In this document: positions 1,202-14,286 of the stretch, piece after piece | Numbering within the stretch: the first letter of the stretch is position 1 | Layout: each line of letters opens with the position of its first letter | From: Cyanobium sp. NS01 | Lineage (GTDB): Bacteria; Cyanobacteriota; Cyanobacteriia; PCC-6307; Cyanobiaceae | Reading direction: 5' to 3' | NCBI RefSeq assembly: GCF_014280235.1 | Contig: NZ_CP047940.1 | Coordinates: 620,001 to 684,000, forward strand | Length of the DNA stretch: 64,000 nt | Program-made: the position numbers and the translations under genes | Notes under the pieces: generated by a model | The model's input: only the letters and a program-made list of their open reading frames with translations | Database searches by the model: none | What the model was told of the DNA's origin: nothing

Positions 1202-2524
1202 TTACAGGCTGAACCTGGGGCTGGCCAGCAGCAGCAAGCGCCGCCCGAGGCGACTGGGGCAACGCACCGCCTTCAGTCTGCGCTGGATGTTGCCATTGTC
1301 AGGCCGCTGCAGGGCGGCCATCTCCAGCAGTTTCCCCGCCTTGGCGTAGTCGTGGGCCGCGATGGCCGTCTCTGCTGCGCGCCGCAGCTGGTTGCTGGAG
1401 AGGTCGGCGGAATTCACCACATAGCCCCGATGCTCCAGTTCCACCGGGTCTTGAGCAGGGGCGCCAGCCTGTTGGAGCCGGTGGCGCTTGATGGCGTCGA
1501 ACAGCCGGCTCGGGCTGCAGCCCTCGTCGTAGCCCACCCAGTGGAGCCAGGCCGAATCCCCCTGGAGTCCCACCAGGGCGTCGAGGTCGCCGATGGCTGC
1601 CAGGCTGCGCACCAGTCCCGAGCCCCCGAAGAAGTCGCTGCCCAGGTCGCCGCGCAGGCCGAAGTCGCCCATCACCAGCGCTGAGCAGCCATGGTCGAGG
1701 GCGTCGAACAACGCCGTGGAGGACAGCGTGGCGAACAGGCGGCTCTCCGCCAGCAGTGCGGCCAGGGGGGCGTAGGAGACCGTCAGGTTGGCCGGACGAC
1801 GACGGCACACCTGCTCGAGGGTGGTGGTGATGTGCTCGCCGATCTCATGGAAGGTGGCCTCATGGGGAGCCACCCGGGGCTTCAGCACCACCTGCCAGTC
1901 GCTGAACCGCTGGGCCAGGTCCACCACCAGCCTGGCCAGCTGGCGCCGCTCCTCCAGGCTCGCGGGCATGGCCACCTGTTCGGCGAACACCAGCTGCCGT
2001 GGGCGATCGGCCAGGGGCCTCACCTCCGCCACCATGGCCCGCTGTAGTCCGGTGAGCACCGTGCGCTGGCCTCTGAAGGGCGTGTGACGCAGGAAGCGCT
2101 CGAAGCGGGCCTGGTCGCGCGGGCCGTTGAGACAGATCAGGTCGTAGCCCAGGCGCCAGGTGACGGCCTCCTCGAAGCGCTCCAGCACCACGCCGTTGAA
2201 CCCGCAGAAGAGCAGGGCCCTGGGTTGGAGATCGTGCTGACGTGAGCGGAGGTAGGCGCTGCGGAAGCCGGCGATCTTGCTGCCAGTGAGGAACACCCCG
2301 ATCGCCGCGTAGCGGCTGAGACCCGGGTCCTGCAGCAGCGTGGTCCAGCTGCCCTGTTGCACCGTGCCCAGCTGTGCCATCCGCCCCTTCACCGCCTCCG
2401 GGGTGCCGTCCCGGGGGATCAGGTGGATGGTGAGCTCAAGGCCGGCGGCGCGGTGCCCCCGGGCCAGGGCCTCGCAGTACAGCATCTGGCTGTCTGAGTC
2501 GGCGACCAGCAGAACGGCGCTCAT
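1202..2524 (-). CDS. Putative glycosyltransferase, DUF6716-like (paralogue 1 of 3)
   Basis: A 440-residue protein that I read as one of three tandem paralogues. It opens with a Rossmann-like strand (AVLLVADSDSQMLY), and its second half carries LFATLSSTALFDALDHG followed by GDFGLRGDLGSDFF. This is the type of segment used by GT-B/polysialyltransferase-like enzymes to hold a nucleotide sugar. The start is the ATG at 2524, which overlaps the stop of the upstream paralogue as ATGA. The longer open frame upstream is antisense to nothing but runs inside the neighbouring gene and is not used. The C-terminal 90 residues are basic and not shared with paralogue 2. The link to the DUF6716 family is from memory. 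Its substrate is probably a CMP-nonulosonate. Confidence 0.7.
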   Translation of the reverse strand: MSAVLLVADSDSQMLYCEALARGHRAAGLELTIHLIPRDGTPEAVKGRMAQLGTVQQGSWTTLLQDPGLSRYAAIGVFLTGSKIAGFRSAYLRSRQHDLQPRALLFCGFNGVVLERFEEAVTWRLGYDLICLNGPRDQARFERFLRHTPFRGQRTVLTGLQRAMVAEVRPLADRPRQLVFAEQVAMPASLEERRQLARLVVDLAQRFSDWQVVLKPRVAPHEATFHEIGEHITTTLEQVCRRRPANLTVSYAPLAALLAESRLFATLSSTALFDALDHGCSALVMGDFGLRGDLGSDFFGGSGLVRSLAAIGDLDALVGLQGDSAWLHWVGYDEGCSPSRLFDAIKRHRLQQAGAPAQDPVELEHRGYVVNSADLSSNQLRRAAETAIAAHDYAKAGKLLEMAALQRPDNGNIQRRLKAVRCPSRLGRRLLLLASPRFSL

Positions 2525-3570
2525 CGCTGCTCCGCCAGGTCGGTGGCCTGCGCTGGCCTGTCCGCCAGCCACTGGATCAGGGCAGCGGCATCGGGACCGA
2601 TCTCCCAGCCCAGCTCCCGCAGCCAGCCGGGATTGGGGGACGGCAGATGCAGCAGCTCCTCGAGGTTCTCGCAGCTGGTGATCCGGCCCATCAGCCCGGA
2701 GCCGAACAGCAGGGGCCCCTGCATGTCGGAGCGGATGCCGTAGTCGCCCAGCAGCAGCAGCGGCAGCTCCCGGCCCAGGGCCTCCCACAGCAAGGGGCTG
2801 CTGATGGTGGCGCAGACGCCGGCCCGATCGAGGCTGCGGGCCCAGTCCGAAGGCGGGGCCAGGCGCAGGTTGGCCAGGGGCGGGCGCTGCTCCAGCAACG
2901 CGGCCAGGCTGGGTTCGCTGTCTTCGACCGCGGCGGAACCGGCATGGTTCCCTGCATGGCCCAGCCCATCCTGTAAGGGATCGCTCTGAAGGATCACCTC
3001 CCAGTCCGGAGAGCTGGAGCAGAGGCGCTCCAGCACCTCCAGCAGCCGCAGACGCGCCCCCGGGGCGGGCGGCAGCATCGCCTGCTCCAGGAACACCAGG
3101 CGCCGCGGCCGGGATCCTGGGGCTGCGGCAGGGAGCTTCGGCGCCAGCCCCCACAACCCCAGCAAGGCCGTGGGTGGGGGCGATTGCCCGCACGTGCGCA
3201 CCAGGTCTGCCAGCTCCTCCTGCTGACGCGGGCCCTGCAGGCAGAGCAGGTCGACTCCGAGCCGTGGCAGCAGATCCATGGCCAGGTCATCGCCCACCAG
3301 GGGCGTGGACGGTCCACTGAACACGGCCACCGGCGTACGGCCCCTCAGGGCGGCAGCCTGCCGCAGCCGTTGCAGGAAGGGGGGCACCTGCAGGGGGTTG
3401 ATGAACAGCCCCACGCCGTCCAGACCGAGCAGCAGATCGCTGCAGCTCAGGGCCTCCAGCCCCAGGGGCGCATCCAGCAGCACCTCCGCTCCTGCCGACT
3501 CCAGCGCGGTGGCGAGGGCCCCGCAGGCGGAGCGGGTCGCCGGGCTGTCGCTCACCAGCAGCACCCTCAT
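2521..3570 (-). CDS. Putative glycosyltransferase, DUF6716-like (paralogue 2 of 3)
   Basis: A 349-residue protein, the shortest of the three. It starts MRVLLVSDSPATRSACGAL, and near residue 270 carries CATISSPLLWEALGRELPLLLLGDYGIRSD-type residues that line up with paralogues 1 and 3. Both ends overlap its neighbours by four bases (ATGA), so the trio is translationally coupled. It lacks the C-terminal extension of the other two. The nucleotide-sugar binding fold is an inference from the shared S-S/T-x-x-x-x-E/D-A motif. Function is unproven. Confidence 0.68.
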   Translation of the reverse strand: MRVLLVSDSPATRSACGALATALESAGAEVLLDAPLGLEALSCSDLLLGLDGVGLFINPLQVPPFLQRLRQAAALRGRTPVAVFSGPSTPLVGDDLAMDLLPRLGVDLLCLQGPRQQEELADLVRTCGQSPPPTALLGLWGLAPKLPAAAPGSRPRRLVFLEQAMLPPAPGARLRLLEVLERLCSSSPDWEVILQSDPLQDGLGHAGNHAGSAAVEDSEPSLAALLEQRPPLANLRLAPPSDWARSLDRAGVCATISSPLLWEALGRELPLLLLGDYGIRSDMQGPLLFGSGLMGRITSCENLEELLHLPSPNPGWLRELGWEIGPDAAALIQWLADRPAQATDLAEQR

Positions 3571-4868
3571 CGGCCGCGGACGAAGTCCTCAACCCAGTGG
3601 AGACCGAGCACGAGGTCGCGCAGATAGCGCATCACATTTTTGCCGCGGTGGCTGGTCTTGAGGCGTGAACGGTTGCCAGCGCTGCTCAGCATCCGCCGGC
3701 CGCCGTGGCGGAGGGCGTACTGCTGCCAGGGCTCGGCCCCCCAGCCCGGCGGGCCCGGGGAGCTGGAGGGCCTGCTGGGCTGGGAGGCCTCCCTGCCCCG
3801 TTCGAGCAGCTGGGCCATGGCCTCGATGAAGCGTTCGCGGCCGTCCTGACAGCGGCCGTGGCTGTCGAGCCAGGCCTCGTCGTGGATCGGCGTGAACGGA
3901 TCGGCGATGATCGCCTCGAAGCTGCGCACCGTGTTCGAGGCCACGAAGTAGTGGTTGCCAAGCGTTTCGTTCACCCCCAGGTCGGCCACGATGCGGGTGC
4001 TGATGCCCAGGGCCATCGCCTCCATGGCCGCCGTTGACGACACGGTGATGGCGCAGCCGCACTGGCGCAGCAGGGCAAGGCTCGGCTTGTAGTTGATCTG
4101 CAGGTTCGGTGATTTGCGCATCAGCTTCTCGATGCGGCTGGCCATCTCCCCGTGGCGCCTGTGCAGGGTGCGCTCCACTCCGGAGGTGCGCGGCTTGAAG
4201 ATCACCGTGTGGTCTGGCCAGCGCTTGGCGAGGTCGTTGAGCCGGTTGCAGACGTAGTGGCGCTGCAGAGGATTGCCGGGCACCGAAGGCTGTTCAAAGA
4301 AGACGATGCTCGGCTTCTCCACGGGGCCGCGGCGGCCTGGGTGCAGGCTCCAGAGGATCGGCAGGCCCGTCACCACGGCGTTGCTGGCCGAGATTCCCAG
4401 GGCCTGGCAGGCGTGGCTGTAGAGCGCCAGGTCCACCGGGGAGTTGAGGCAGAGCAGATCGGCACCGGAGCGATCCATCATCCCCTCGATCTGGTGGCGG
4501 AAGAGGATGCCGGGGTAGGCGCTCACCGTCAGGGGCCAGCGCCCATCAGGCATCTCCGATCGCAGCAGCATCTGCAGCTCACGGGTGCGCTGGCCGTCCA
4601 GGCCCAGCACCAGGGCATCGAGCTCGGCGAGGGTGGCGCGGATCTGGCGGAGGGTCTGCCAGTCCTGGCGCACGATTGTCACCTTGGCGTCGATCCGCTG
4701 GATTTCAATCAGCTGCCGCCGCGACAGACGGCGGCCCTGGATTTCCAGCAGGAACAGGGTGGTCGTTGCCCCCTGCTTGCGGCACACCGACAACATCGCC
4801 ATGGCGGTCTTGCCAAAGGAGTCGAAGCTCGCGATGGCGGCGATCTGTCGGTCCTGCAGGCGGCTCAT
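3567..4868 (-). CDS. Putative glycosyltransferase, DUF6716-like (paralogue 3 of 3)
   Basis: A 433-residue protein starting MSRLQDRQIAAIASFDSFG at the ATG at 4868, which overlaps the neuA stop as ATGA. The core motif CAITVSSTAAMEAMALG followed by DLGVNETLGNHYF matches the corresponding segments of the two downstream paralogues. FKPRTSGVERTLHRRHGEM resembles the basic nucleotide-binding segment of polysialyltransferase-like enzymes (compare LKPRVAPHEATFHEIGE in paralogue 1). The last 90 residues are basic and low in complexity. Its position directly behind neuA suggests that it uses the CMP-sugar made by NeuA. Confidence 0.7.
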   Translation of the reverse strand: MSRLQDRQIAAIASFDSFGKTAMAMLSVCRKQGATTTLFLLEIQGRRLSRRQLIEIQRIDAKVTIVRQDWQTLRQIRATLAELDALVLGLDGQRTRELQMLLRSEMPDGRWPLTVSAYPGILFRHQIEGMMDRSGADLLCLNSPVDLALYSHACQALGISASNAVVTGLPILWSLHPGRRGPVEKPSIVFFEQPSVPGNPLQRHYVCNRLNDLAKRWPDHTVIFKPRTSGVERTLHRRHGEMASRIEKLMRKSPNLQINYKPSLALLRQCGCAITVSSTAAMEAMALGISTRIVADLGVNETLGNHYFVASNTVRSFEAIIADPFTPIHDEAWLDSHGRCQDGRERFIEAMAQLLERGREASQPSRPSSSPGPPGWGAEPWQQYALRHGGRRMLSSAGNRSRLKTSHRGKNVMRYLRDLVLGLHWVEDFVRGR

Positions 4869-5623
4869 CCGCCCAATCCTCCGGGAACGGCGCCCTCCAG
4901 CAGCGGGGCCAGCTGGCGGCAGAGGGCGAGATCGGCCGGGGTGTCAATCTCCGGGGAGAGCGCCTCGATCTGTACCGGCAGCAGAGGTGGCACGAAGCGG
5001 CTGCCGGCACTCAGGAAGGCCTGGGTACGCAGGGCATAGATGGAGCCTGTCTCGAGAAAGCAGGGCTCCAGATCCTGGCGCCTCTGGCGGGGGCGGCTGG
5101 CGTCGTGGTTAAGGCCCACCCCCCAGCCGTCAGGATCGCGGCCCCACAGGAAGCCGTGCCACGGCGTCACGGCAAAGGCCAGGTTGGCCTCCGACCCCTG
5201 CAGACTCCGCACCACCTGGTCAATCTGCTCGCCGGTGGTGAATGGTGAGGTGCACTGCAGAAAGACGAACACGGGGGGGAGGGCCCCCTGCTGGCCCAGG
5301 TCGCGCAATGCGTGCACCAGGGCCGACTCCGACGACGCCCCGTCGCCTGCCAGCTCCGCAGGCCGGCTCACCAGCTCGGCGCCTGCTGCGGCGGCGGCCT
5401 CAGCGATCGCCCCATCGTCGGTGCTGACCACCACCCTGCCGATGCACGTGGCGGCGAGGGCGCACTGAACCGTGCGACCCACCAGGGGTAGCCCACCCAG
5501 GGGCTGGAGGTTCTTGTGGGGTATGCCCTTGGACCCGCCCCTTGCCGGAATCAGGGCCAGGGGCGGGAGAGCGGGATCGATCAGCGGTTCGGACCAGTCG
5601 TGGCGCGGGATCGGCAGTTCCAT
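4865..5623 (-). CDS. neuA: CMP-nonulosonate (N-acetylneuraminate-type) cytidylyltransferase
   Basis: A 252-residue protein that activates a nonulosonic acid with CTP to give a CMP-sugar. The CTP-binding loop ALIPARGGSKGIPHKN lies near residues 23-38, followed by VVSTDD, FLQCTSPF and an ETGSIYAL segment, all typical of the NeuA/KdsB fold. I chose the ATG at 5623; an in-frame start at 5686 would run back into kpsC. Its stop overlaps the start of glycosyltransferase paralogue 3. With neuB at the window edge it forms the precursor pathway for the surface polymer. The C-terminus lacks the SGNH extension seen in some NeuA proteins. Confidence 0.9.
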   Translation of the reverse strand: MELPIPRHDWSEPLIDPALPPLALIPARGGSKGIPHKNLQPLGGLPLVGRTVQCALAATCIGRVVVSTDDGAIAEAAAAAGAELVSRPAELAGDGASSESALVHALRDLGQQGALPPVFVFLQCTSPFTTGEQIDQVVRSLQGSEANLAFAVTPWHGFLWGRDPDGWGVGLNHDASRPRQRRQDLEPCFLETGSIYALRTQAFLSAGSRFVPPLLPVQIEALSPEIDTPADLALCRQLAPLLEGAVPGGLGG

Positions 5624-5657
5624 CCCCAGGACTCCGGGGTCCGCACTGAGCCCGAAC

Positions 5658-7862
5658 CTAGCAGCGCCCATCGGGGCTCCAGGCACGCAGCCGCGCTCGG
5701 ATCTGGGCCAGCCGGAAGTGCAGCTTCGGCGGTGGATTCAGCCCCAGCAGCTCCAGCCAGCGGGGCAAGGGGGTGGGGAAGGTGCCGGGATCGCGGCGCA
5801 GCAGCCCCAGCTCCTCCACGACCCGCTCCGGTGTGGTGAAGGCGCCTGAAGCCTGGCTCAGATAGATCGGGTAGTGGATCAGGGCGCCGTAGACAAGCTC
5901 ATCGAGCTCCAGATCCCGGCCCCGCCGCTCGCACTGCAGCTGGTCGCGGCTGAGCCCCCAGCCGGCATAGAAGGGCAGGCCCCAGGTCTCCACCGGGATG
6001 CCCCGCAGCAGGGCTTCGAAGCCGGTGATTGAGGTGCGCACGTGCACGCTGTCCACCTCCTGGAGCAGATGGTCCATCGGCGCCTCGGCAAGCACCAGAT
6101 CGCAGTGGCGGTGAGCCTCCGCTTCCCCTGGGCCGGGTTTCTGACGCCCGGAAACCACATCCGGATGGGGCTTGTAAATCAGGAAATCGTCCGGATAGGC
6201 CGCGCGCACCGCCTGCAGCAGCTGCAGATTGCTGCGCACGCTGGCCTGCTCCGGCACGCCATAGCGGATCGAGAGGTCCACCTCCACCTGGCCGGGCACC
6301 AGGCGCACCTGCCTGCGCCCCAGGTCTGAGGGACGGCTCCACAGGGGCGCGCGCAGGTTGTATTTCGTCACCCCCGCAGCCACGATCCGCTGCCGCAGGG
6401 CCGCGGCCCGCTGTCGCTGGGCAGCCGTGAAGCGGTGTTGGGCCAGGAAGGTCTCCAGGTCGCAGGCGCAGGAGGCGTCGTAGTAGATGCCGGAGTGGTC
6501 CACCACCCAGGACACCGGCGGCACCCAGCGCAGCCACCATCCCTGCCCCACCGACCGCAGAAAGCCGTCTTCGGCGTGGATCAGGGGGCTGCCGGCCTTC
6601 CGCAGACCCAGCCCCACCCGGTTGCCCCACACCAGGGATCTCCAACCTGCCTCCCGGGTCGGCCTGGCATGGAAGGGGCGAAAGCGCAGCCGTCCGGGGC
6701 TGAGGGAGCGCTGAAAGCGCCGCACGGCCTGGCGTTTCCAGCCGGCGATCCCAAACACCTCCAGGGCCGGCGGCACCGCGGCCCGCTGGCGCCGCTGCAG
6801 TCCGACATGGGCGATCAGTGCCTCGGGACTGGTGAGCTGGCGGGTTTCGGGATTGAGGTAGCGGGCGTACCCCACCAGGCAGGCATGCACCAGATCCTCC
6901 AGCTGTGCACCTCCTGCGCGGGCTTCCCTTGCCCGGGCCGGGTGATCCGTGGCTGGCAGCCGGTCGTGGGTGAGCCCCCAGCCGGCATAGAAGGGCATGC
7001 CGAAGCAGTGCACGGGCCTGCCCCAGATCAGGGCCTCGAAACCCATCTGGGAGGTCACCACATAAACGGCGCTGGCGGCTTCCAGCAGGGCCGCAGGATG
7101 GCCGCCATCCGCACAGGCCAGCACCCTGGGGTGCTGGAAGACCTCCGCCGGGACATGCCCCCGGCGCTGCCCGCTCACCACGTCGGGGTGGGTCTTCAGC
7201 ACGACCTGGTGCCCGGGGAAGTCCTGCAGCGCGGCCTCGAGCATCGCCAGGAAGCTGGCTGCGGAGGCGGCGCCGTGGCGGATGGAGACATCGCCCGCCA
7301 CCTGATCCACCACCAGCACGAACGGGCCATCGGGGGGCGGCGACTCCCGGGCCCCGTTCAGCTTGCTGACCCGGTGCTCCCGCCAGGCCGCCGCCAGCTG
7401 CCGGGCCCGCTGCTGCTGGGCGGGATCCAGGCCCGAGGCGATCAGCCCCTCCAGCCTGCTCGGCCGGGAGGCGTCGTAATGGATCCCCCGATCGTCCAGC
7501 AGGATGCCAAGCGGCGGTGTGCCCGGTCCTGGATCCACCGAGCGCAGGAAGGCGTCCTCGACCCGCCACAGGGGCAGGCCCTTGCGCACGGCCTCCCGTT
7601 CGCCCCAGAGCCCGCTGCGGCGCCGTCCCCACACCAGCAACGCGTCGGGGTCAAGGCGCCTGCAGGCACGGCGTCCAACCACAACCTGCGCTGGAGCCAG
7701 CAGCGCCTCCAGAGTGGTGTGGGCCAGCACAAGGGGATCGGGAAGGCCGATCAGAGGTTCCGGCCCGCCCAGGGCGGCAGTGGTTGCGGAGGTGCCTCCT
7801 GCAGGGGCGGGACTGGGGCTGGGCAGGAGCGGGAAAGCGGCCGGCTGCGGGCTGGTCGCCAT
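5658..7862 (-). CDS. kpsC: Capsular polysaccharide beta-Kdo transferase KpsC
   Basis: A 734-residue protein with two similar halves, the hallmark of KpsC. Each half carries a KxHPDVVSG motif (LKTHPDVVSG and YKPHPDVVSG) and a GFEAL...PFYAGWGL motif. In enterobacterial capsules KpsC extends the poly-Kdo linker between the lipid anchor and the polysaccharide, using CMP-Kdo, at the cytoplasmic face of the inner membrane. The first 60 residues from the ATG at 7862 are Pro/Ser/Ala-rich and not conserved; an in-frame start at 7940 is also possible. It is divergent from the kpsS fusion gene 108 bases away, so the two probably share a control region. Confidence 0.9.
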   Translation of the reverse strand: MATSPQPAAFPLLPSPSPAPAGGTSATTAALGGPEPLIGLPDPLVLAHTTLEALLAPAQVVVGRRACRRLDPDALLVWGRRRSGLWGEREAVRKGLPLWRVEDAFLRSVDPGPGTPPLGILLDDRGIHYDASRPSRLEGLIASGLDPAQQQRARQLAAAWREHRVSKLNGARESPPPDGPFVLVVDQVAGDVSIRHGAASAASFLAMLEAALQDFPGHQVVLKTHPDVVSGQRRGHVPAEVFQHPRVLACADGGHPAALLEAASAVYVVTSQMGFEALIWGRPVHCFGMPFYAGWGLTHDRLPATDHPARAREARAGGAQLEDLVHACLVGYARYLNPETRQLTSPEALIAHVGLQRRQRAAVPPALEVFGIAGWKRQAVRRFQRSLSPGRLRFRPFHARPTREAGWRSLVWGNRVGLGLRKAGSPLIHAEDGFLRSVGQGWWLRWVPPVSWVVDHSGIYYDASCACDLETFLAQHRFTAAQRQRAAALRQRIVAAGVTKYNLRAPLWSRPSDLGRRQVRLVPGQVEVDLSIRYGVPEQASVRSNLQLLQAVRAAYPDDFLIYKPHPDVVSGRQKPGPGEAEAHRHCDLVLAEAPMDHLLQEVDSVHVRTSITGFEALLRGIPVETWGLPFYAGWGLSRDQLQCERRGRDLELDELVYGALIHYPIYLSQASGAFTTPERVVEELGLLRRDPGTFPTPLPRWLELLGLNPPPKLHFRLAQIRARLRAWSPDGRC

Positions 7863-7970
7863 CCTTTGTGCCGGAGGTTGGTGAGGCAATCTTACGCCTT
7901 GGTCCCTGGATCCATCACCTGTCTCAGTGCCTGTCAGCACTGGGTTTCAGCCCGACCTAGCCGCTGCAGC

Positions 7971-10022
7971 ATGGGAGAATCGGCTCGTCCGGCCGCAGGG
8001 GTGGCATTGGCCAGCGTTCAGATTCGGATCGAAGGCCCGGTGCTGCTCCTGATGGGCCCGATCGGTCTGTTCTTCTCGCGCCTCTGGCGGTATCTGCACG
8101 ACTGTGGCGTGCCGGCCTACAAGATTTCCTATCCGCTGCATGAATTCGGATTTCCTCGGCAGGCCAGGATTCCGTTTTCAGGTTCCATGGAGGAATGGCC
8201 AGCATTCCTGCGGGAGGTGATCCAGGACAAGGGGATCCGCCACCTGTTCATGTATGGCGACTTCATTGATCCGCATCGCCTGGCCATTGAAGTGGCCCAT
8301 AGTCTGAACGTTGATGCCTATGTGTTTGAGCTGGGTTACGTCAGGCCGAACTATGTCACTCTGGAGCGTGATCGCGTCAACTGCCGCTCCAATCTCAACC
8401 AGCCGGTGAGCTTCTATGAGGCCCTGCCAGCGGTGGCTCATCTGCCCCAGGCACGCCTGGATCCTGGTTGGCGCTGGCGCAAGATCTGGAAAGCACCCAC
8501 CTTCTTCCAGCACGCCTTCACGCGCTACAGGATCATTGAAGGGGAGCACAAGTTGCAGCCCTCGCCAGCCTTTCTCTGGTGCCAGGTGCGGGGCTCCGTG
8601 CGCTACTGGATGTATCGGCTGCAGGAACGCAAGCTCAAGCACCTGTTGGTCGAAAACCTGTCGTTCTTCCTGGCGATTCTTCAGGTCTCCAGTGACTCCC
8701 AGATCACCACAGGGTCAGGATTCCGCGGCATGCACGATTTCATTGAAACGGTGATCGTGTCATTTGCAGCCCATGCCCATCCCTCAGATCATCTGGCTTT
8801 CAAGCACCATCCCCGCGATCGTGGTTACAACAACTATAAATCACTGATTCACCTGCTGGCCGAGCGGGAAGGTGTCGCTGGCCGGGTTCATTACTTCCAC
8901 GATGGTCCCCTCAGCGCCTTTATTCGAACCTGTCGCGGCGTGGTCACCGTGAACAGCACCGTGGGGCTGCAGTCTCTTTTCCATGCGGCAGCCACCAAAG
9001 TGATGGGGCAGACGTTCTATAACCTGCCGGGCCTGACGGATCAACAGCCATTGGATGGGTTTTGGGCCGCGCCCCAAACCAGCAGTCGGCCTTTGTTTTA
9101 CCGCTTCTACAACCACCTCGTCACCACCACCCAGATCAACGGCAACTTTGATGGTGAATTCCCTTTCCGCGAGACCTTGCCGGTAGCCCTGTCGGCGCGC
9201 TCCAGTCCAGCGCAGCTGGGGCGGGCTCAGGCCACCAGCCTGGGCTGGGTGGTGCCGCTGAGGGTGATCTATCGCCTGTTCTGCTTCGGGGCCATGTATG
9301 TGGCCTATGCCTTGGAGCTGATCGCTCTCACCCTGAGGCTGCGGCGACTGGCCCGACATTTGCTCACCGCGGTCGCCCGCTTCGGCCTGCGCGCCGTGGG
9401 CATCGATGTGATTGTGGACGACAGCCTGTTGCTGCAGGATGATCAGTGCCGACGCATCCATATCTGGAATCACAACAGCCCCTTTGATGTGTTCGCCATC
9501 CAGGGCTATCTGCAGATTCCCGCTGTCACCACCTCCGGGTTGCATCTGAACCGGTTGCTGCCGTTCTTTGATCGTTCCGCCACCAATGCCGGCCATGTGC
9601 TCCTGGATCATCGTCAACCCGATCAGCGACGCAGCACGCTCTGGAAGTCGTCGCAGGTGCTGGAGCGCCACGGCCAGTTGATGATTGCGCCCAACGGTTC
9701 CCTGAAGACGTCGATCCTGCAGCGCGCTTCCGCCAGTGCCTATCTGCTGGCCCGCCGCCATCGGGCCACGGTGGTGCCCTGGTGGTTTGAGTACAGAGGG
9801 CTGGAGGGCATCGAGGCTGGGGCGCTCTACAGACCACTGCGCCTGCTGGCCCAGCGACTCACGGCCCCACGGGTTGTGCTCCACTGTCGCCAGGGTCGTC
9901 CCGAGGATCTCGGCTTGCCGGTTGAGGAGAACCATCGGGAGGGTTTCTCCCGCCGCGTGATGGCGTACTACTCCCAGGATGCGGCCGGCTGGGCTGAGCG
10001 CCATCACCATCGGGCCAGCTGA
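7971..10022 (+). CDS. kpsS: KpsS-type Kdo transferase fused to a PlsC/OlsA-like acyltransferase
   Basis: This 683-residue protein joins two activities. Residues about 15-410 match KpsS, which adds the first Kdo to a lysophosphatidylglycerol acceptor: MGPIGLFF near 28, FKHHPRDRGYNNY near 277 and VNSTVGLQSL at 327-336. A hydrophobic stretch around 425-460 links to residues 465-683, which look like a lysophospholipid acyltransferase: HX4D at His501-Asp506 (NHNSPFD) and a motif-III-like APNGSLKTS at 573-581, where the usual Glu of PEG is Asn. Ordinary KpsS ends near residue 400. The ATG at 7971 is preferred; a GTG at 8001 is an alternative. The frame stays open upstream but overlaps kpsC antisense. 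The fabF stop abuts this stop convergently. Confidence 0.82.
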   Translation: MGESARPAAGVALASVQIRIEGPVLLLMGPIGLFFSRLWRYLHDCGVPAYKISYPLHEFGFPRQARIPFSGSMEEWPAFLREVIQDKGIRHLFMYGDFIDPHRLAIEVAHSLNVDAYVFELGYVRPNYVTLERDRVNCRSNLNQPVSFYEALPAVAHLPQARLDPGWRWRKIWKAPTFFQHAFTRYRIIEGEHKLQPSPAFLWCQVRGSVRYWMYRLQERKLKHLLVENLSFFLAILQVSSDSQITTGSGFRGMHDFIETVIVSFAAHAHPSDHLAFKHHPRDRGYNNYKSLIHLLAEREGVAGRVHYFHDGPLSAFIRTCRGVVTVNSTVGLQSLFHAAATKVMGQTFYNLPGLTDQQPLDGFWAAPQTSSRPLFYRFYNHLVTTTQINGNFDGEFPFRETLPVALSARSSPAQLGRAQATSLGWVVPLRVIYRLFCFGAMYVAYALELIALTLRLRRLARHLLTAVARFGLRAVGIDVIVDDSLLLQDDQCRRIHIWNHNSPFDVFAIQGYLQIPAVTTSGLHLNRLLPFFDRSATNAGHVLLDHRQPDQRRSTLWKSSQVLERHGQLMIAPNGSLKTSILQRASASAYLLARRHRATVVPWWFEYRGLEGIEAGALYRPLRLLAQRLTAPRVVLHCRQGRPEDLGLPVEENHREGFSRRVMAYYSQDAAGWAERHHHRAS

Positions 10023-11273
10023 TCAGGCCCCCTGCAGCACCAGGGAAATGTTGTGCCCACCAAAGCCAAACGCATTTTTGAGCACATAGCGTTGCTGAAC
10101 CGGCTGGGTGAGCCGGGTGGGTTTCCCCTTGACCAGGTGGAGCTGAACGGCGGGATCCTGGGGCTGACTGTTGGCGCTCACAGGAACCTGCCCGCTGGCC
10201 AGGGACCTGATGGCCATGATGGTTTCCACCGCGCCGGCCCCGCCGAGCATGTGGCCGAACTGTCCTTTCGGTGCCGTCACCGCTAGGGCCGCGTTGGCTT
10301 CTCCCAGAAGCCCACCGATCGCCTGGGCTTCCGCCAGATCACCCATGGCGGTACCCGTGGCATGGGCCTGGATGAAACTCAGATCGGCCACGGCCAGACC
10401 GCTGCGCTGCAGGGCCTGCTGCATGGCTGCCCGGGCCTGGGCGCCATGGGGTTCGGGCGACACCATGTGATGGGCATCGGCGGTGCTTCCCGCATCCAGG
10501 AGGTACGCCTCACAGCGGGCGCCGCGGGCGTTGGCATCGGCCTCGCGCTCCAGAACCAGAATGCCGGCCCCCTCAGCGATCACGAAGCCATCCCGATCCA
10601 GGCCATAGGGGCTGGAGGCCAGCTCCGGAGTGCGGTTCCGGGTGGAGAGGGCGCGCATGGCACTGAAGCCCGCCAGGCCCAGTTGGTTCACGGGGGCCTC
10701 CGACCCCCCCGCCACCACCACATCGGCGCGGTCATCGCGCAACAGCATCAGGGCCCAGAGCAGGGCTTCGGCGGAGGAAGCACAGGCCGAAACGGGAGTG
10801 TGGGCGCCGCCGTGGGCACCGAGGGCAATGCTGATCTGCCCTGCCCCCGCATTGGGAATCAGCATCGGCACCGTCACCGGATTCACCCGCGAGGGGCCCC
10901 GTTCCAGCAGGATCCGGTACTGCTGTCCCATGGTCTCCAGACCGCCGATGCCGCAGCCCACCACCACAGCAACCCGGGGCTCGGGCAGCCCACCAGGAGC
11001 GTCGAGGCCCGCCCCCTGCCAGGCCTCCCTGGCCGCGAGCAAGGCCAACTGGGAGCAGCGATCAAGGCGGCGCCTGAGCAGGGCTTCCAACTGGGCCGTG
11101 GGCTCATTTGGCACGACCCCCGCCAGCCGGGATGGGAGAGCCTGGGCCCAGTCATCCAGTAAGGGACTGATCCCCGAGCGACCCCCTAGGTAGGCCTGCC
11201 AGCCGCTCTCCACCCCGATACCCAGGGGAGAGAGGGCTCCCATGCCCGTGATGGCGATCCTCTCCTTGGCCAC
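10023..11273 (-). CDS. fabF: Beta-ketoacyl-ACP synthase II-type condensing enzyme
   Basis: A 416-residue KAS-II enzyme that condenses malonyl-ACP with acyl-ACP in chain elongation. The catalytic triad is visible: Cys164 (SACASS), His304 (AHATGT) and His341 (FGHMLGG). It begins AITGMGALSPLG, and the Gly-rich C-terminus FGFGGHN is intact. The neighbours are an ACP gene upstream on the same strand and the acyltransferase fusion downstream, not the acpP/tktA context usual for the housekeeping picocyanobacterial fabF. I therefore infer a dedicated paralogue serving the capsule lipid. I cannot exclude that it is the only copy in the genome. Confidence 0.9.
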   Translation of the reverse strand: MAKERIAITGMGALSPLGIGVESGWQAYLGGRSGISPLLDDWAQALPSRLAGVVPNEPTAQLEALLRRRLDRCSQLALLAAREAWQGAGLDAPGGLPEPRVAVVVGCGIGGLETMGQQYRILLERGPSRVNPVTVPMLIPNAGAGQISIALGAHGGAHTPVSACASSAEALLWALMLLRDDRADVVVAGGSEAPVNQLGLAGFSAMRALSTRNRTPELASSPYGLDRDGFVIAEGAGILVLEREADANARGARCEAYLLDAGSTADAHHMVSPEPHGAQARAAMQQALQRSGLAVADLSFIQAHATGTAMGDLAEAQAIGGLLGEANAALAVTAPKGQFGHMLGGAGAVETIMAIRSLASGQVPVSANSQPQDPAVQLHLVKGKPTRLTQPVQQRYVLKNAFGFGGHNISLVLQGA

Positions 11274-11374: not shown

Positions 11375-11722
11375 TCACCGTGTGGTGGGCTGGGTCAGGG
11401 TCCCGGTTCGGGACGTGACGTAATCAACGATATCGCGTACGGTTTTGAAAGTGAGAAGATCCTTTTCCTCTATCTTGATGCCCAACGTTTCGTCGGCTTC
11501 GATCAAAATCTCGTAGAAACCAAGCGAATCAACCCCTACATCATCAATGATGAGGGAATCGAGCTCAATGCCCTCGGGATCGGCACCGGCGATGCGCGCC
11601 AGAATGTCTTTCAGGCCAGCCAGGATCTCAGCCTCGGTGAGAGGAAAACTTGCCTTGGATTGCAGGTGGCCTTCGGAGGGCGGCAGTCCTTCGTTGGATT
11701 CGGGGGTGACTGAATCTGTCAA
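11375..11722 (-). CDS. Acyl carrier protein-like protein
   Basis: A short acidic protein whose core has the phosphopantetheine attachment segment DDVGVDSLGFYE, then EADETLGIKIEEKDLLTF and the helix TVRDIVDYV, as in ACPs. The attachment Ser is in DSL. There is no ATG or GTG in frame: the possible starts are TTG at 11722 (115 residues) and TTG at 11761 (128 residues). The 25-40 residues before the ACP fold (up to SFPLTEAEIL) are longer than in housekeeping ACP (about 80 residues). It lies 101 bases upstream of fabF and 22-61 bases after the GNAT gene, on the same strand. Confidence 0.85.
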   Translation of the reverse strand: MTDSVTPESNEGLPPSEGHLQSKASFPLTEAEILAGLKDILARIAGADPEGIELDSLIIDDVGVDSLGFYEILIEADETLGIKIEEKDLLTFKTVRDIVDYVTSRTGTLTQPTTR

Positions 11723-11783
11723 GAGTTTGTGACTATGACGAGCTGGGGAGGAGCCGATCAAGTGTGCTGGATGCAGTATTTTA

Positions 11784-12758
11784 TCACTGACTCAAGGGTT
11801 GGCCAGCTGGGGCTGCATCGCTGGAGTCAGCTCCAGAAGGTCCGCGGAACCAGGGAAACTGCCGGTACACAGCCGTGTGGGCAAAGCCCACGAAATGCTG
11901 CAGCCGGCGCCGGGGGACCTTGGTGAGGTCGGCAGTCATCAAAATCTCCGTGATCTGGTTAAAGTCTTTGGCAACAGAAATATCATGGGTCTTAGCTCCC
12001 ATGAGGTTGATGTATTGCCGTAACAACACCGGCAGCTTGAAGCTCTCCAGCTCCTTCTGGGTTTCGCCTTCCAGCTTCTGAATCGATGGGCAGCTGCCGC
12101 CTGCATGACGTTCATCGCCACGGAATCCCCTTGGATAGCGGGCTGGAGGGAGGTCAGTGTTGTCGTCCCTGAACGGAGGCAGCATCAGGGAACGGAGGAA
12201 ATAATCGTTAACACTGCCTGGATATTGAAAGTGGTTGTAAGAGACTAATCCGTAAACCGCTGTGTAGCCTGAAGCAGTAGCTGCTTGAAGACCTCCCCGG
12301 AACAGGGTCATCAATGACGCCGGTTGCCGCTGGAATGCTGGTGAAATCGCAACTCTGCCGATTTCGAGATGGCTGCCGCGGGTGATCAGATAGTTCTTGA
12401 TCCCTGGGTAGACATGCTCAAGGTATGACGTCGCCGAGCTGTGGGTCAGGCTGCTGCTGCTGGGGGCTGATGAGAGGGTCTGGGCTGGAACGAACTGCAG
12501 ACGAGCTGTTCCGGCAAGGGCAAATGTGGCATCGTCAACCAGGATAAAATGATCGTAAAATGGATCTCTACCATCCAGATCTTTGTTGTTTCCAGAGCCA
12601 GAAAGCTTCTGCCTGTAGGTTAGCTCTCGAAGCAGGCCAACTTCATCTGAAAAGTTTTCAAAAGTATTTCCCGGAATTAGGAAAAGCGTTAATCCGTAGT
12701 TGGAAAAGAAATAAAATGGCTTGATGTCGTCAATCAGTGCACGGCTCAGGGGGATCAT
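11784..12758 (-). CDS. GNAT-fold N-acyltransferase (OlsB / N-acyl amino acid synthase-like)
   Basis: A 324-residue protein with a GNAT core: ELTYRQKL, then FILVDDATFALAGTARLQF as strands 2-4, then HLEIGRVAISPAFQRQP and SGYTAVYGLVSYNHFQ. The E-I-G-R-V segment followed by the acyl-donor loop resembles OlsB (ornithine N-acyltransferase) and exosortase-associated acyltransferases, which use acyl-ACP. A separate ACP and a KAS enzyme lie directly downstream, which fits an acyl-ACP donor. The ATG at 12758 is chosen because the 23 residues before it are His/Arg-rich and unlike the fold; a longer frame starts at 12827. The exact acceptor amino compound is unknown. Confidence 0.65.
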   Translation of the reverse strand: MIPLSRALIDDIKPFYFFSNYGLTLFLIPGNTFENFSDEVGLLRELTYRQKLSGSGNNKDLDGRDPFYDHFILVDDATFALAGTARLQFVPAQTLSSAPSSSSLTHSSATSYLEHVYPGIKNYLITRGSHLEIGRVAISPAFQRQPASLMTLFRGGLQAATASGYTAVYGLVSYNHFQYPGSVNDYFLRSLMLPPFRDDNTDLPPARYPRGFRGDERHAGGSCPSIQKLEGETQKELESFKLPVLLRQYINLMGAKTHDISVAKDFNQITEILMTADLTKVPRRRLQHFVGFAHTAVYRQFPWFRGPSGADSSDAAPAGQPLSQ

Positions 12759-12915
12759 CGGTCGCTGGGGCTGAGCGCGGTGGAAGTCGTGGAGCCCATG
12801 AAACCACCTGGGGTGACCCCGAACCAAGGCCCAGGGCTTGGGGGCACCAGAGCCCTGCCGGTTGTGAGGCTGTCACCTGGATCAGGCCAGACTCTGCCCT
12901 TACACTGAGCGCCCA
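12759..12915. promoter_or_regulatory. Divergent intergenic region between the GNAT gene and the Wza-like gene
   Basis: This 157-base spacer separates two divergent genes of the surface-polysaccharide block and must hold both promoters. I see no clear -35/-10 pair or recognisable operator in it. Confidence 0.4.
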
Positions 12916-14286
12916 ATGCTGAACCGCCTGAAGCGGCTGGAGATCAGCGTGTCTGTCGAGGTTTCGATGCTGCCCTCCATCCGTGTTCATTTGACGGCCG
13001 CCGTGCAGGCTCCGCTGCGGATCGGGGCTGCAGGACTGCTGCTCGCCAGCCCAGGCCTGATGGTTCCGGGCAACCCCGCTCAAGCAGGCCAGCAGCAGCT
13101 GGCAGGCCGGCTGCGCCCCACAGCCACCCAGGAGGCTTCAGGTCCTTGGTTGGCCCAGCGTCAGGCTTACCCGATGTCCGGGGATCCCCTTTCCCCCCAG
13201 GCAGCCACTCCCGTTCAAAGCCGCATCCTGTCCGAACCAGCGGCGCAGCCGCCGCGCGCCACCCAGCAGGCCCGCCGGGCCATCTTCAGCCCTGAGACCA
13301 GCAATTTCCGCTATCGCCTGGCCCCTGGGGATCGGGTGCGGATTTCGGTGTTCAAGGTGGAGGGTTATGGCGCCGAAACTGAAGTTCTCAGTGATGGCAC
13401 GGTGAACCTGCCTCGGATCGGGTCTGTGAATGTGTGGGGCTTGACCCTAGATGAATCCAACCAGCGCATCACAAGTCTCTACTCCACGATCCTGCGTCGA
13501 CCCCTGGTCTACATCGACCTGATCGCGCCCAGGCCGGTGCGGGTGTCGTTGGTGGGTCAGCTGGAGCGGCCAGGCTTTTATACCCTCAGCCGTGATCCAT
13601 CGACGTCAACGTTGCGAGCGGCAGGCCCCGGTGTGGAGGGCACGGTGGTGGCAACCTCTGGTTGGCCCACCATGGTGGATGCGATCCAGCGGGCAGGCGG
13701 CATCACGGCCATGGGGGATCTCTCCAATCTGGTGCTTGTGCGCCAGGGCAATGTTCCTGGAGAGGCGCCGCGTGAATATCACTTCGACTATCTCAGCGTC
13801 CTGATGAACAATGTACAGGTGGTTAATCCCCTGATTAATGACGGTGACATGATCAGGGTCGGCAAGTTGGAAGGCGCTCGATCCAATGAAGCCTTGATTG
13901 CTACTGGTGCTTCCAACTTCGCTCCCGACGCCATCTCGGTGAATGTCGTTGGTGAAGTAGAGGTTCCTGGTATCAAGCAGGTGAAGTCAAATAGCCCCCT
14001 GACCAATGCGGTGATGGCCGCCGGCGGTCTTGATCCACAGCGCGCCAGGGTCTCCAACGTCCGCCTGCTGCGGTTGGAGGCCGATGGTTCGATCCTTTCC
14101 CAGGAGGTGGCCTTTGACCCTTCAGCCGAACTGGGTTCGGAGGCCAATCCCCCCCTGCGGAATGGTGATGTGATCGTGGTGTCCCGTAACAACTGGACCC
14201 GTTTCAATGACACTCTGTCGCAAGCGGTGGCGCCCCTCGGTCCCCTGTTGAATGCCGCCTCGCTTTACAACATTCTGACTCGCTGA
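12916..14286 (+). CDS. Polysaccharide export protein, Wza/KpsD-like, with SLBB repeats
   Basis: A 456-residue protein. After a long N-terminal region with a hydrophobic segment and a likely cleavage site (NPAQAG near residue 57), a Poly_export domain starts near residue 130 (YRLAPGDRVRISVFKVEGY) and is followed by SLBB-type beta-grasp repeats (SLVGQLERPGFYTL and VNVVGEVEVPGI). This family forms the outer-membrane/periplasmic channel for capsule or exopolysaccharide. It is divergent from the GNAT gene and closes the surface-polysaccharide block. No lipobox Cys is obvious near the N-terminus. Later starts such as the ATG at 12967 are possible. Confidence 0.87.
   Translation: MLNRLKRLEISVSVEVSMLPSIRVHLTAAVQAPLRIGAAGLLLASPGLMVPGNPAQAGQQQLAGRLRPTATQEASGPWLAQRQAYPMSGDPLSPQAATPVQSRILSEPAAQPPRATQQARRAIFSPETSNFRYRLAPGDRVRISVFKVEGYGAETEVLSDGTVNLPRIGSVNVWGLTLDESNQRITSLYSTILRRPLVYIDLIAPRPVRVSLVGQLERPGFYTLSRDPSTSTLRAAGPGVEGTVVATSGWPTMVDAIQRAGGITAMGDLSNLVLVRQGNVPGEAPREYHFDYLSVLMNNVQVVNPLINDGDMIRVGKLEGARSNEALIATGASNFAPDAISVNVVGEVEVPGIKQVKSNSPLTNAVMAAGGLDPQRARVSNVRLLRLEADGSILSQEVAFDPSAELGSEANPPLRNGDVIVVSRNNWTRFNDTLSQAVAPLGPLLNAASLYNILTR

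Follow-up and report, generated by a model that had tools for sequence, protein, structure and literature searches.

Why would a glycosyltransferase predicted to place the first sugar of a capsule on its lipid anchor carry an acyltransferase on the same polypeptide? The question is raised by an open reading frame in a 64,000-nucleotide stretch of the genome of Cyanobium sp. NS01 (contig NZ_CP047940.1, positions 620,001 to 684,000; hereafter the window, numbered from its first letter), in which a KpsS-type transferase for 3-deoxy-D-manno-octulosonic acid (Kdo) is continued by a lysophospholipid acyltransferase (LPLAT) half. We tentatively favor the answer that the protein serves a dedicated capsule anchor, probably not ordinary lysophosphatidylglycerol (lyso-PG), to which an N-acyltransferase encoded nearby (GNAT) would contribute an amide-linked chain, the LPLAT half an ester-linked chain and the KpsS half the first Kdo. 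What we observe are domains, folds, motifs, a gene set that recurs, both fused and split forms, and Kdo genes; the catalytic activity, the order in which the steps occur and the nature of the lipid are inferred from them. The fusion is made up as follows:

7971..10022, + strand: KpsS-LPLAT fusion protein of 683 aa, an open reading frame that is fused in relatives too
8013..9200, + strand: KpsS-type retaining beta-Kdo transferase half, residues ~15-410 (PF05159, NCBIfam KpsS, fold matches)
8694..8696, + strand: D242, candidate catalytic nucleophile of the KpsS half, invariant in alignments
9255..10019, + strand: LPLAT half, residues 429-683, with an N-terminal helix pair (PF01553, PlsC fold in a confident model)
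9471..9488, + strand: HX4D catalytic motif, H501-D506
9690..9701, + strand: motif III variant PNGS, P574-S577, replacing PEGT (alignments)

The first-pass annotation, made from the letters of this stretch alone, had described a single frame with KpsS motifs and an acyltransferase half, and this is borne out: the frame runs without interruption from the ATG at 7971 to the stop at 10020-10022, contains HHPRD, VNSTVGLQSL and H501-D506 as claimed, and exceeds the gathering scores of both PF05159 and PF01553 in the same chain. Since most alignments start at residue 4-18, the true start may lie elsewhere than at ATG 7971. Homologues with 45-84% identity continuous across both halves occur in many genomes, which rules out an assembly or frame artefact and the mis-joining of two genes. 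Internal stops were found in 0/13 matches of a genus scan; in the family scan the rows of G144, G191, G307 and G313 (G numbers denote sampled genomes, the window genome being G000, and L numbers fetched loci) each contain one TGA, with an alignment that overruns the end of the frame. The structure predicted for the full-length protein has a local confidence score (pLDDT) of 79.7 and a predicted template-modeling score (pTM) of 0.58, and because of the latter the relative placement of the two halves is uncertain.

The identity of the first half is supported by profile, fold and motifs alike. PF05159 (Capsule_synth) covers residues 94-393 (E 1.6e-53, 182.6 bits against a gathering score of 20), and the NCBIfam KpsS equivalog NF050054 scores 270.4 bits over residues 24-393, which lies under its 600-bit cut-off, hence our wording “KpsS-type”. 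As a sequence search of the PDB with this half returned no match, a fold search was needed; with the full model, and among the structures in its lists, it returned WbbB (Z 15.8), KpsC (13.6) and KrkA (12.2), all of them Kdo transferases. The Pfam score and the fold together place the half in the retaining Kdo-transferase superfamily. By alignment only, and via the KpsC encoded in the window, D242 corresponds to the residue replaced in the KpsC D160N/D160C structures, and it would thereby provide the aspartate nucleophile of retaining beta-Kdo transferases. The predicted activity of the KpsS half is the transfer of the first Kdo from CMP-Kdo.

The second half proves to be an LPLAT, as had been proposed, although its bounds differ: it had been taken to start at residue 465, whereas the structural unit starts near residue 429 with the helix pair. 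PF01553 (Acyltransferase) covers residues 496-606 (E 9.5e-7, 29.1 bits against a gathering score of 23), and residues 429-683 modeled alone (mean pLDDT 89.8, pTM 0.87) match PlsC best (5kym; Z 15.8, rmsd 3.9, 226 residues aligned), followed by glycerol-3-phosphate acyltransferases (Z ~11), PatA (10.4) and LpxM (9.3). Domain score, HX4D motif and fold thus agree on the LPLAT superfamily. N500, H501 and D506 are invariant in alignments of 23 and 20 sequences, outside both of which stand the motif-less members treated below; an apparent loss of the HX4D aspartate in L090 is an ambiguous codon. Within the superfamily the protein is set apart from PlsC, scoring 22.9 bits against the TIGR00530 cut-off of 102.95. 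Motif III of PlsC-type LPLATs is defined by PEGT(R), and FPEG is visible in the PlsC structure 5kym, but the fused LPLAT has P[NS]GS in its place. This form is common to fused and free-standing LPLATs, the exceptions being the four motif-less loci and L043/L093, which lack the proline. The window genome has five further PF01553 matches, all with D/E-G at motif III, whereas the fused LPLAT lacks the acidic residue, which favors, without proving, a different and non-glycerophosphate acceptor.

How widely is this architecture retained? In the genus of the window a match to the fusion protein was found in 12/13 genomes, its own included, and in its family in 44/300 genomes from 8/59 genera; 40/44 cover both halves, the remaining four being G066, G107, G135 and G301. 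A phylum sample gave both-halves matches in 11/386 genomes, all of the same family, and four more genomes with remote matches to the LPLAT only. A scan of named genome contigs with two short KpsS peptide patterns yielded 53 loci. Gene content marks 50 of them as cyanobacterial; the other three come from other phyla and carry KpsS without a fusion. Profile matches show a fusion in 33 of the 50 (including the motif-less L109) and none in 11, from Prochlorococcus, while L113 has a degenerate C-terminus and five stop at a contig edge. The fusion is found in Cyanobium and Synechococcus; none was seen outside the cyanobacteria, where it was thinly tested, with 0/101 matching plasmid records covering 80% of the query and a contig scan whose two short patterns would overlook a fusion of an LPLAT with a divergent KpsS.

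The following locus counts refer to 93 fetched loci and the window, from which 66 distinct cyanobacterial KpsS sequences longer than 330 aa were counted, with three outgroups, fragments and duplicates excluded. Prochlorococcus has kpsC, kpsS and an LPLAT gene side by side, the latter two neighboring or slightly overlapping, and the LPLAT is kept with both motifs in 10/11 loci. The possibility that two separate proteins are made, which would have undone the first-pass interpretation, does not apply to the window, where the fusion recurs in relatives, but is realized in Prochlorococcus as neighboring genes. In the KpsS tree the Prochlorococcus branch is nested within the fused forms, sister to the fused G125 (support 100/98), so that the split is probably the derived state and later than the fusion; the tree has a long outgroup branch, weak deeper forks and AT-rich rows of odd composition. 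One further arrangement was seen in L070:8721-12887 (-), a single-cell genome shared with L095, in which KpsC, KpsS and LPLAT form one frame of 1388 aa, either by a frameshift or as a real triple fusion; its close relative L094 has KpsC in a different frame.

Where the fused LPLAT has decayed, it tends to be replaced. Both motifs are lost in 4/53 distinct fused loci (L045, L046, L051 and L109), and an intact free-standing LPLAT lies directly downstream in 4/4 of these against 2/49 of the others, the two being L043, whose fused motif III lacks its proline, and L044 (Fisher p 5e-5, uncorrected for kinship, the four being close kin that may represent one to three events). In a tree the six free-standing copies group together in a separate clade (98/92), away from the fused domains; the L046 and L051 remnants were not part of that tree. 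Omega, the ratio of nonsynonymous to synonymous rates, was estimated for 14 chosen pairs, of which two were saturated in synonymous divergence (dS) and the G066/G107 remnant pair was set apart. In the C-terminal part it was 0.07-0.14 in seven pairs with an intact domain and 0.27-0.50 in four with a degenerate one, three of the latter being near saturation (dS 1.7-2.5) and the sound pair, L046-L051, giving 0.33; the KpsS half of the same pairs gave 0.02-0.06, and the remnant pair 0.08 in both halves. This comparison shows a pattern of relaxed selection on the motif-less fused LPLATs. Taken with the split forms and the replacements, it indicates that selection generally maintains an acyltransferase alongside KpsS, whether or not the two share a chain.

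These data bear on the suggestion that the LPLAT half is a membrane-association module only, with its chemistry dispensable. The long helix pair at its start and the persistence of degenerate LPLATs on KpsS would fit such a role, which we nevertheless consider very improbable given that both motifs are retained in 65/72 fused rows (duplicates included), that omega separates intact from degenerate pairs even if three of the latter are near saturation, and that every motif-less locus (4/4) carries an intact free-standing copy. Shrunken LPLAT remnants without NHx4D were also noted in L055:8744-10837 (-), which belongs to G066, and in L113; ketosynthase, acyl carrier protein (ACP) and GNAT are retained there, and a free-standing LPLAT was not found within either locus.

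If an acyltransferase is kept beside KpsS, what lipid might it act on? Three genes directly downstream of the fusion offer a clue:

10023..11273, - strand: FabF-like ketosynthase with Cys-His-His motifs (PF00109/PF02801)
11375..11761, - strand: ACP with a DSL serine at residue 68 (PF00550, E 3e-12)
11784..12827, - strand: OlsB-like N-acyltransferase (GNAT; PF13444, E 7e-10)

The GNAT scores 40 bits against the PF13444 gathering score of 22.4 and so carries the domain of OlsB and OlsF; its best NCBIfam match, like that of four divergent relatives, is OlsF (NF052615), with 53.5 bits over the OlsB-like C-terminal half only, under the cut-off of 620. The ketosynthase passes the PRK07314 subfamily cut-off, scores 426.6 bits with the fabF equivalog, under the cut-off of 493.75, and has its Cys-His-His motifs at residues 162, 303 and 340. 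A convergent GNAT is present in 58/58 distinct loci with more than 4.5 kb downstream (the longer loci), and in 62/63 when the count is extended to those of the eight shorter loci that reach across its place: it is present in L065, L084, L107 and L121, L056, L094 and L109 end before its place, and L125 covers the place without it. Ketosynthase and ACP are both found in 37/58 longer loci. Among the genomes of the family, PF13444 occurs in 42/44 with a match to the fusion protein and in 8/256 others (p 1e-40, which relatedness inflates); the two misses, G135 and G301, hold only a fragment of the fusion protein. A Kdo transferase fused to an acyltransferase and adjoining further lipid-making genes suggests that Cyanobium and Synechococcus build their own lipid anchor for the capsule.

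In the mechanism that we tentatively propose, the GNAT would put a first, amide-linked acyl chain from acyl-ACP on an amine headgroup, the chain being supplied in many strains by the dedicated ketosynthase and ACP; the LPLAT half would attach a second, ester-linked chain, either before the Kdo is transferred or just afterwards; and the KpsS half would add the first Kdo from CMP-Kdo. The fusion would then join two consecutive lipid-end steps in the assembly of a group-2-like capsule, one with an ABC exporter and a poly-Kdo linker, with one polypeptide passing the lipid between its two active sites, after which KpsC would extend the Kdo linker and a KpsMTED-type machine export the capsule. The more specific version, an aminolipid-type anchor made on site in which an OlsB-like enzyme N-acylates the amine and a bifunctional KpsS-LPLAT O-acylates the product and attaches the first Kdo, is conceivable but more doubtful.

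The main and simpler rival, which we regard as unlikely, is that the LPLAT half acts on lyso-PG or Kdo-lyso-PG, acylating or re-acylating it, that the anchor is ordinary phosphatidylglycerol (PG), and that GNAT, ketosynthase and ACP make some other product. PlsC is, after all, the nearest solved relative of the LPLAT half, L125 retains kpsS and LPLAT without an adjoining GNAT, and KpsS has been reported to add Kdo to (lyso-)PG, with mono- and diacyl anchors in E. coli K5, in the portion of PMC7694667 available to us. On the other side stand the GNAT that adjoins the module in nearly all loci and is otherwise rare in the family sample, the motif III without the acidic residue of the five other PF01553 matches, and the TIGR00530 score far below its cut-off. 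The first-pass annotation had joined two ideas, a coupling of the lipid and first-sugar steps and lyso-PG as the lipid. The coupling gains support from the fused and split forms and from decayed domains replaced by intact free-standing copies; lyso-PG as the LPLAT substrate is weakened, though not disproved, by the GNAT, by the ketosynthase and ACP, and by motif III.

Several observations weigh against the dedicated anchor that we propose. The GNAT lies far under the OlsF/OlsB cut-offs, and we know of no precedent for a KpsS acting on an aminolipid. Ketosynthase and ACP are absent at 21/58 loci; L119 (Prochlorococcus) has the GNAT but lacks the LPLAT; and G066 has a fused LPLAT reduced to a shrunken remnant, the two PF01553 matches of that genome lying on other contigs. 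The sole exception among the GNAT loci, L125 (Prochlorococcus, L125:11195-14439), contains kpsC, kpsS and LPLAT; the 2.5 kb beyond the LPLAT hold no GNAT and a tblastn of the locus was negative, but the gene may sit elsewhere in this partial genome. Each lipid step can thus be lost or supplied elsewhere. Finally, relatedness of the genomes inflates the co-occurrence tests. Directly after the LPLAT of L125 lies a glycosyltransferase-like frame (12016-12960).

The remaining question is whether the surroundings are those of a Kdo capsule. The relevant genes of the window are:

5658..7940, - strand: KpsC, dual Kdo transferase (PF05159 in four stretches, E 8.1e-79; KpsC structures, E 2.5e-57)
12916..14286, + strand: Wza/KpsD-type outer-membrane export protein (PF02563, SLBB)
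4865..5686, - strand: CMP-sugar synthetase, PseF/KdsB-like (PF02348; PseF 117 bits, under the cut-off of 205.7)
1-1035, - strand: NeuB-type synthase with an N-terminal CBS-like stretch, near the PseF-like gene

Elsewhere in G000, at ~192 kb, KdsA scores over its cut-off and is adjoined by KdsD- and KdsC-like frames (identified by eye), and 25-27 kb before the window lie a KpsM-like (96.7 bits) and a KpsE-like gene (179 bits), both under their equivalog cut-offs. KdsA is found in 43/44 family genomes with a match to the fusion protein (42 over the cut-off), the miss being G007, a genome 77% complete, against 99/256 others (91 over the cut-off). Among 15 selected genomes, KpsE-like matches of 140-229 bits occur in 10/10 with the protein and a 24-bit match in 1/5 without; the best KpsM-like matches are 64-140 bits in the former and a weak 18-31 bits in 3/5 of the latter, so KpsM alone is a poor marker. 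The Prochlorococcus locus L122 brings together KpsE, KpsM, an ABC ATPase (NCBIfam), Wza, KpsC, KpsS, LPLAT and GNAT, with KpsM and KpsE scores under the equivalog cut-offs, and its close relative L120 has KpsF, passing the subfamily cut-off, and KdsA-like frames recognized by reading. We also considered that the sugar might be other than Kdo, as the PseF-like and NeuB genes could imply; this is weakened by the KdsA over its cut-off, the KdsD- and KdsC-like frames and the Kdo-transferase fold. A role of the NeuB and PseF-like genes in the repeat unit is more likely, and a nonulosonic acid may accompany Kdo in the capsule.

According to the part of PMC4515613 accessible to us, the lipopolysaccharide (LPS) of marine Synechococcus WH8102 and CC9311 is without Kdo. 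A Kdo pathway would hence need another use, and Kdo probably goes to the capsule, which could explain its destination in relatives of strains with Kdo-less LPS. This differs from a survey (PMC4594306, seen in part) that found KpsS/KpsC, KpsF and KpsU to be confined and inferred that cyanobacterial polymers have no poly-Kdo linker or have Kdo attached otherwise.

How does the system compare with known ones? The KpsS of E. coli is free-standing, of about 400 aa, and to our knowledge has no acyltransferase, GNAT, ketosynthase or ACP partner; it shares the PF05159 GT-B retaining Kdo-transferase fold and the adjacent kpsC, but its acceptor, in the passages of PMC7694667 at hand, is (lyso-)PG. For OlsB/OlsA, OlsF and GlsB we know of no Kdo transferase partner. 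These systems likewise pair a PF13444 N-acyltransferase with an O-acyltransferase (OlsA being PF01553, as stated in the available part of PMC11631085), but they make membrane aminolipids, and the GNAT of the window is far under their equivalog cut-offs. VexE of the Vi capsule is, like the fusion, a two-domain protein whose LPLAT specifically serves the lipid anchor of a capsule exported by an ABC transporter, and by analogy it is a precedent for a capsule-dedicated LPLAT, but it is a TPR-LPLAT that acylates UDP-GlcNAc (PMC9597891), in a system without KpsS and KpsC as far as the consulted part of a review (PMC12220298) describes it. A VexE-like role, in which the LPLAT half would acylate a sugar (the Kdo residue or a nucleotide sugar) to give a glycolipid anchor, draws on the sugar acylators PatA and LpxM among the structural matches; we hold it to be improbable, as PlsC fits better, VexE has a TPR domain instead of a Kdo transferase, and the GNAT would be left unneeded.

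The first-pass remark that no KpsS of this architecture had been described agrees with our search of the open-license literature, where no account of a KpsS-acyltransferase fusion was found, which is weak evidence of absence. Marine Synechococcus clusters resembling E. coli kps are already known (Syn-eCAG_008/009, and a 12-gene cluster in clades III and WPC1; PMC10119275 and PMC7522525, both seen in part) and are possibly the same loci, but the word “acyltransferase” is absent from the main texts of both as available, and the fusion with an LPLAT was not found described. The portion of PMC12220298 cited above presents the lipid terminus of ABC-exported capsules as conserved, consisting of Kdo on PG, with the Vi antigen as the exception; our proposal, if true, would add a third kind of anchor besides PG and the acylated N-acetylhexosamine of Vi. 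Abundant photosynthetic bacteria appear to carry a Kdo-capsule machinery with a built-in lipid module, and the capsule-anchor chemistry of marine and freshwater picocyanobacteria becomes directly testable.

A few minor features remain to be recorded. The contig of L097, counted among the 50 cyanobacterial loci, is labeled as a Bifidobacterium breve metagenome-assembled genome, carries a cyanobacterial capsule locus, groups with G284 in both trees, and is probably mislabeled or misbinned. A viral library gave partial matches, which have no bearing on the interpretation. One further feature of the window lies between the NeuB-type and PseF-like genes:

1202-4868, - strand: three consecutive DUF6716 putative glycosyltransferase genes (profile matches)

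DUF6716 genes were mapped in marine and Cyanobium-type loci, and not in the loci lacking ketosynthase and ACP or in L049, L053 and L055. The kpsC gene lies on the strand opposite to kpsS in the window and in its two nearest relatives, L031 and L032, and is co-directional in the other mapped loci showing both. At L067:7545-8767, an additional 1.2 kb separates kpsC from the KpsS-LPLAT frame, in contrast to the related L038.

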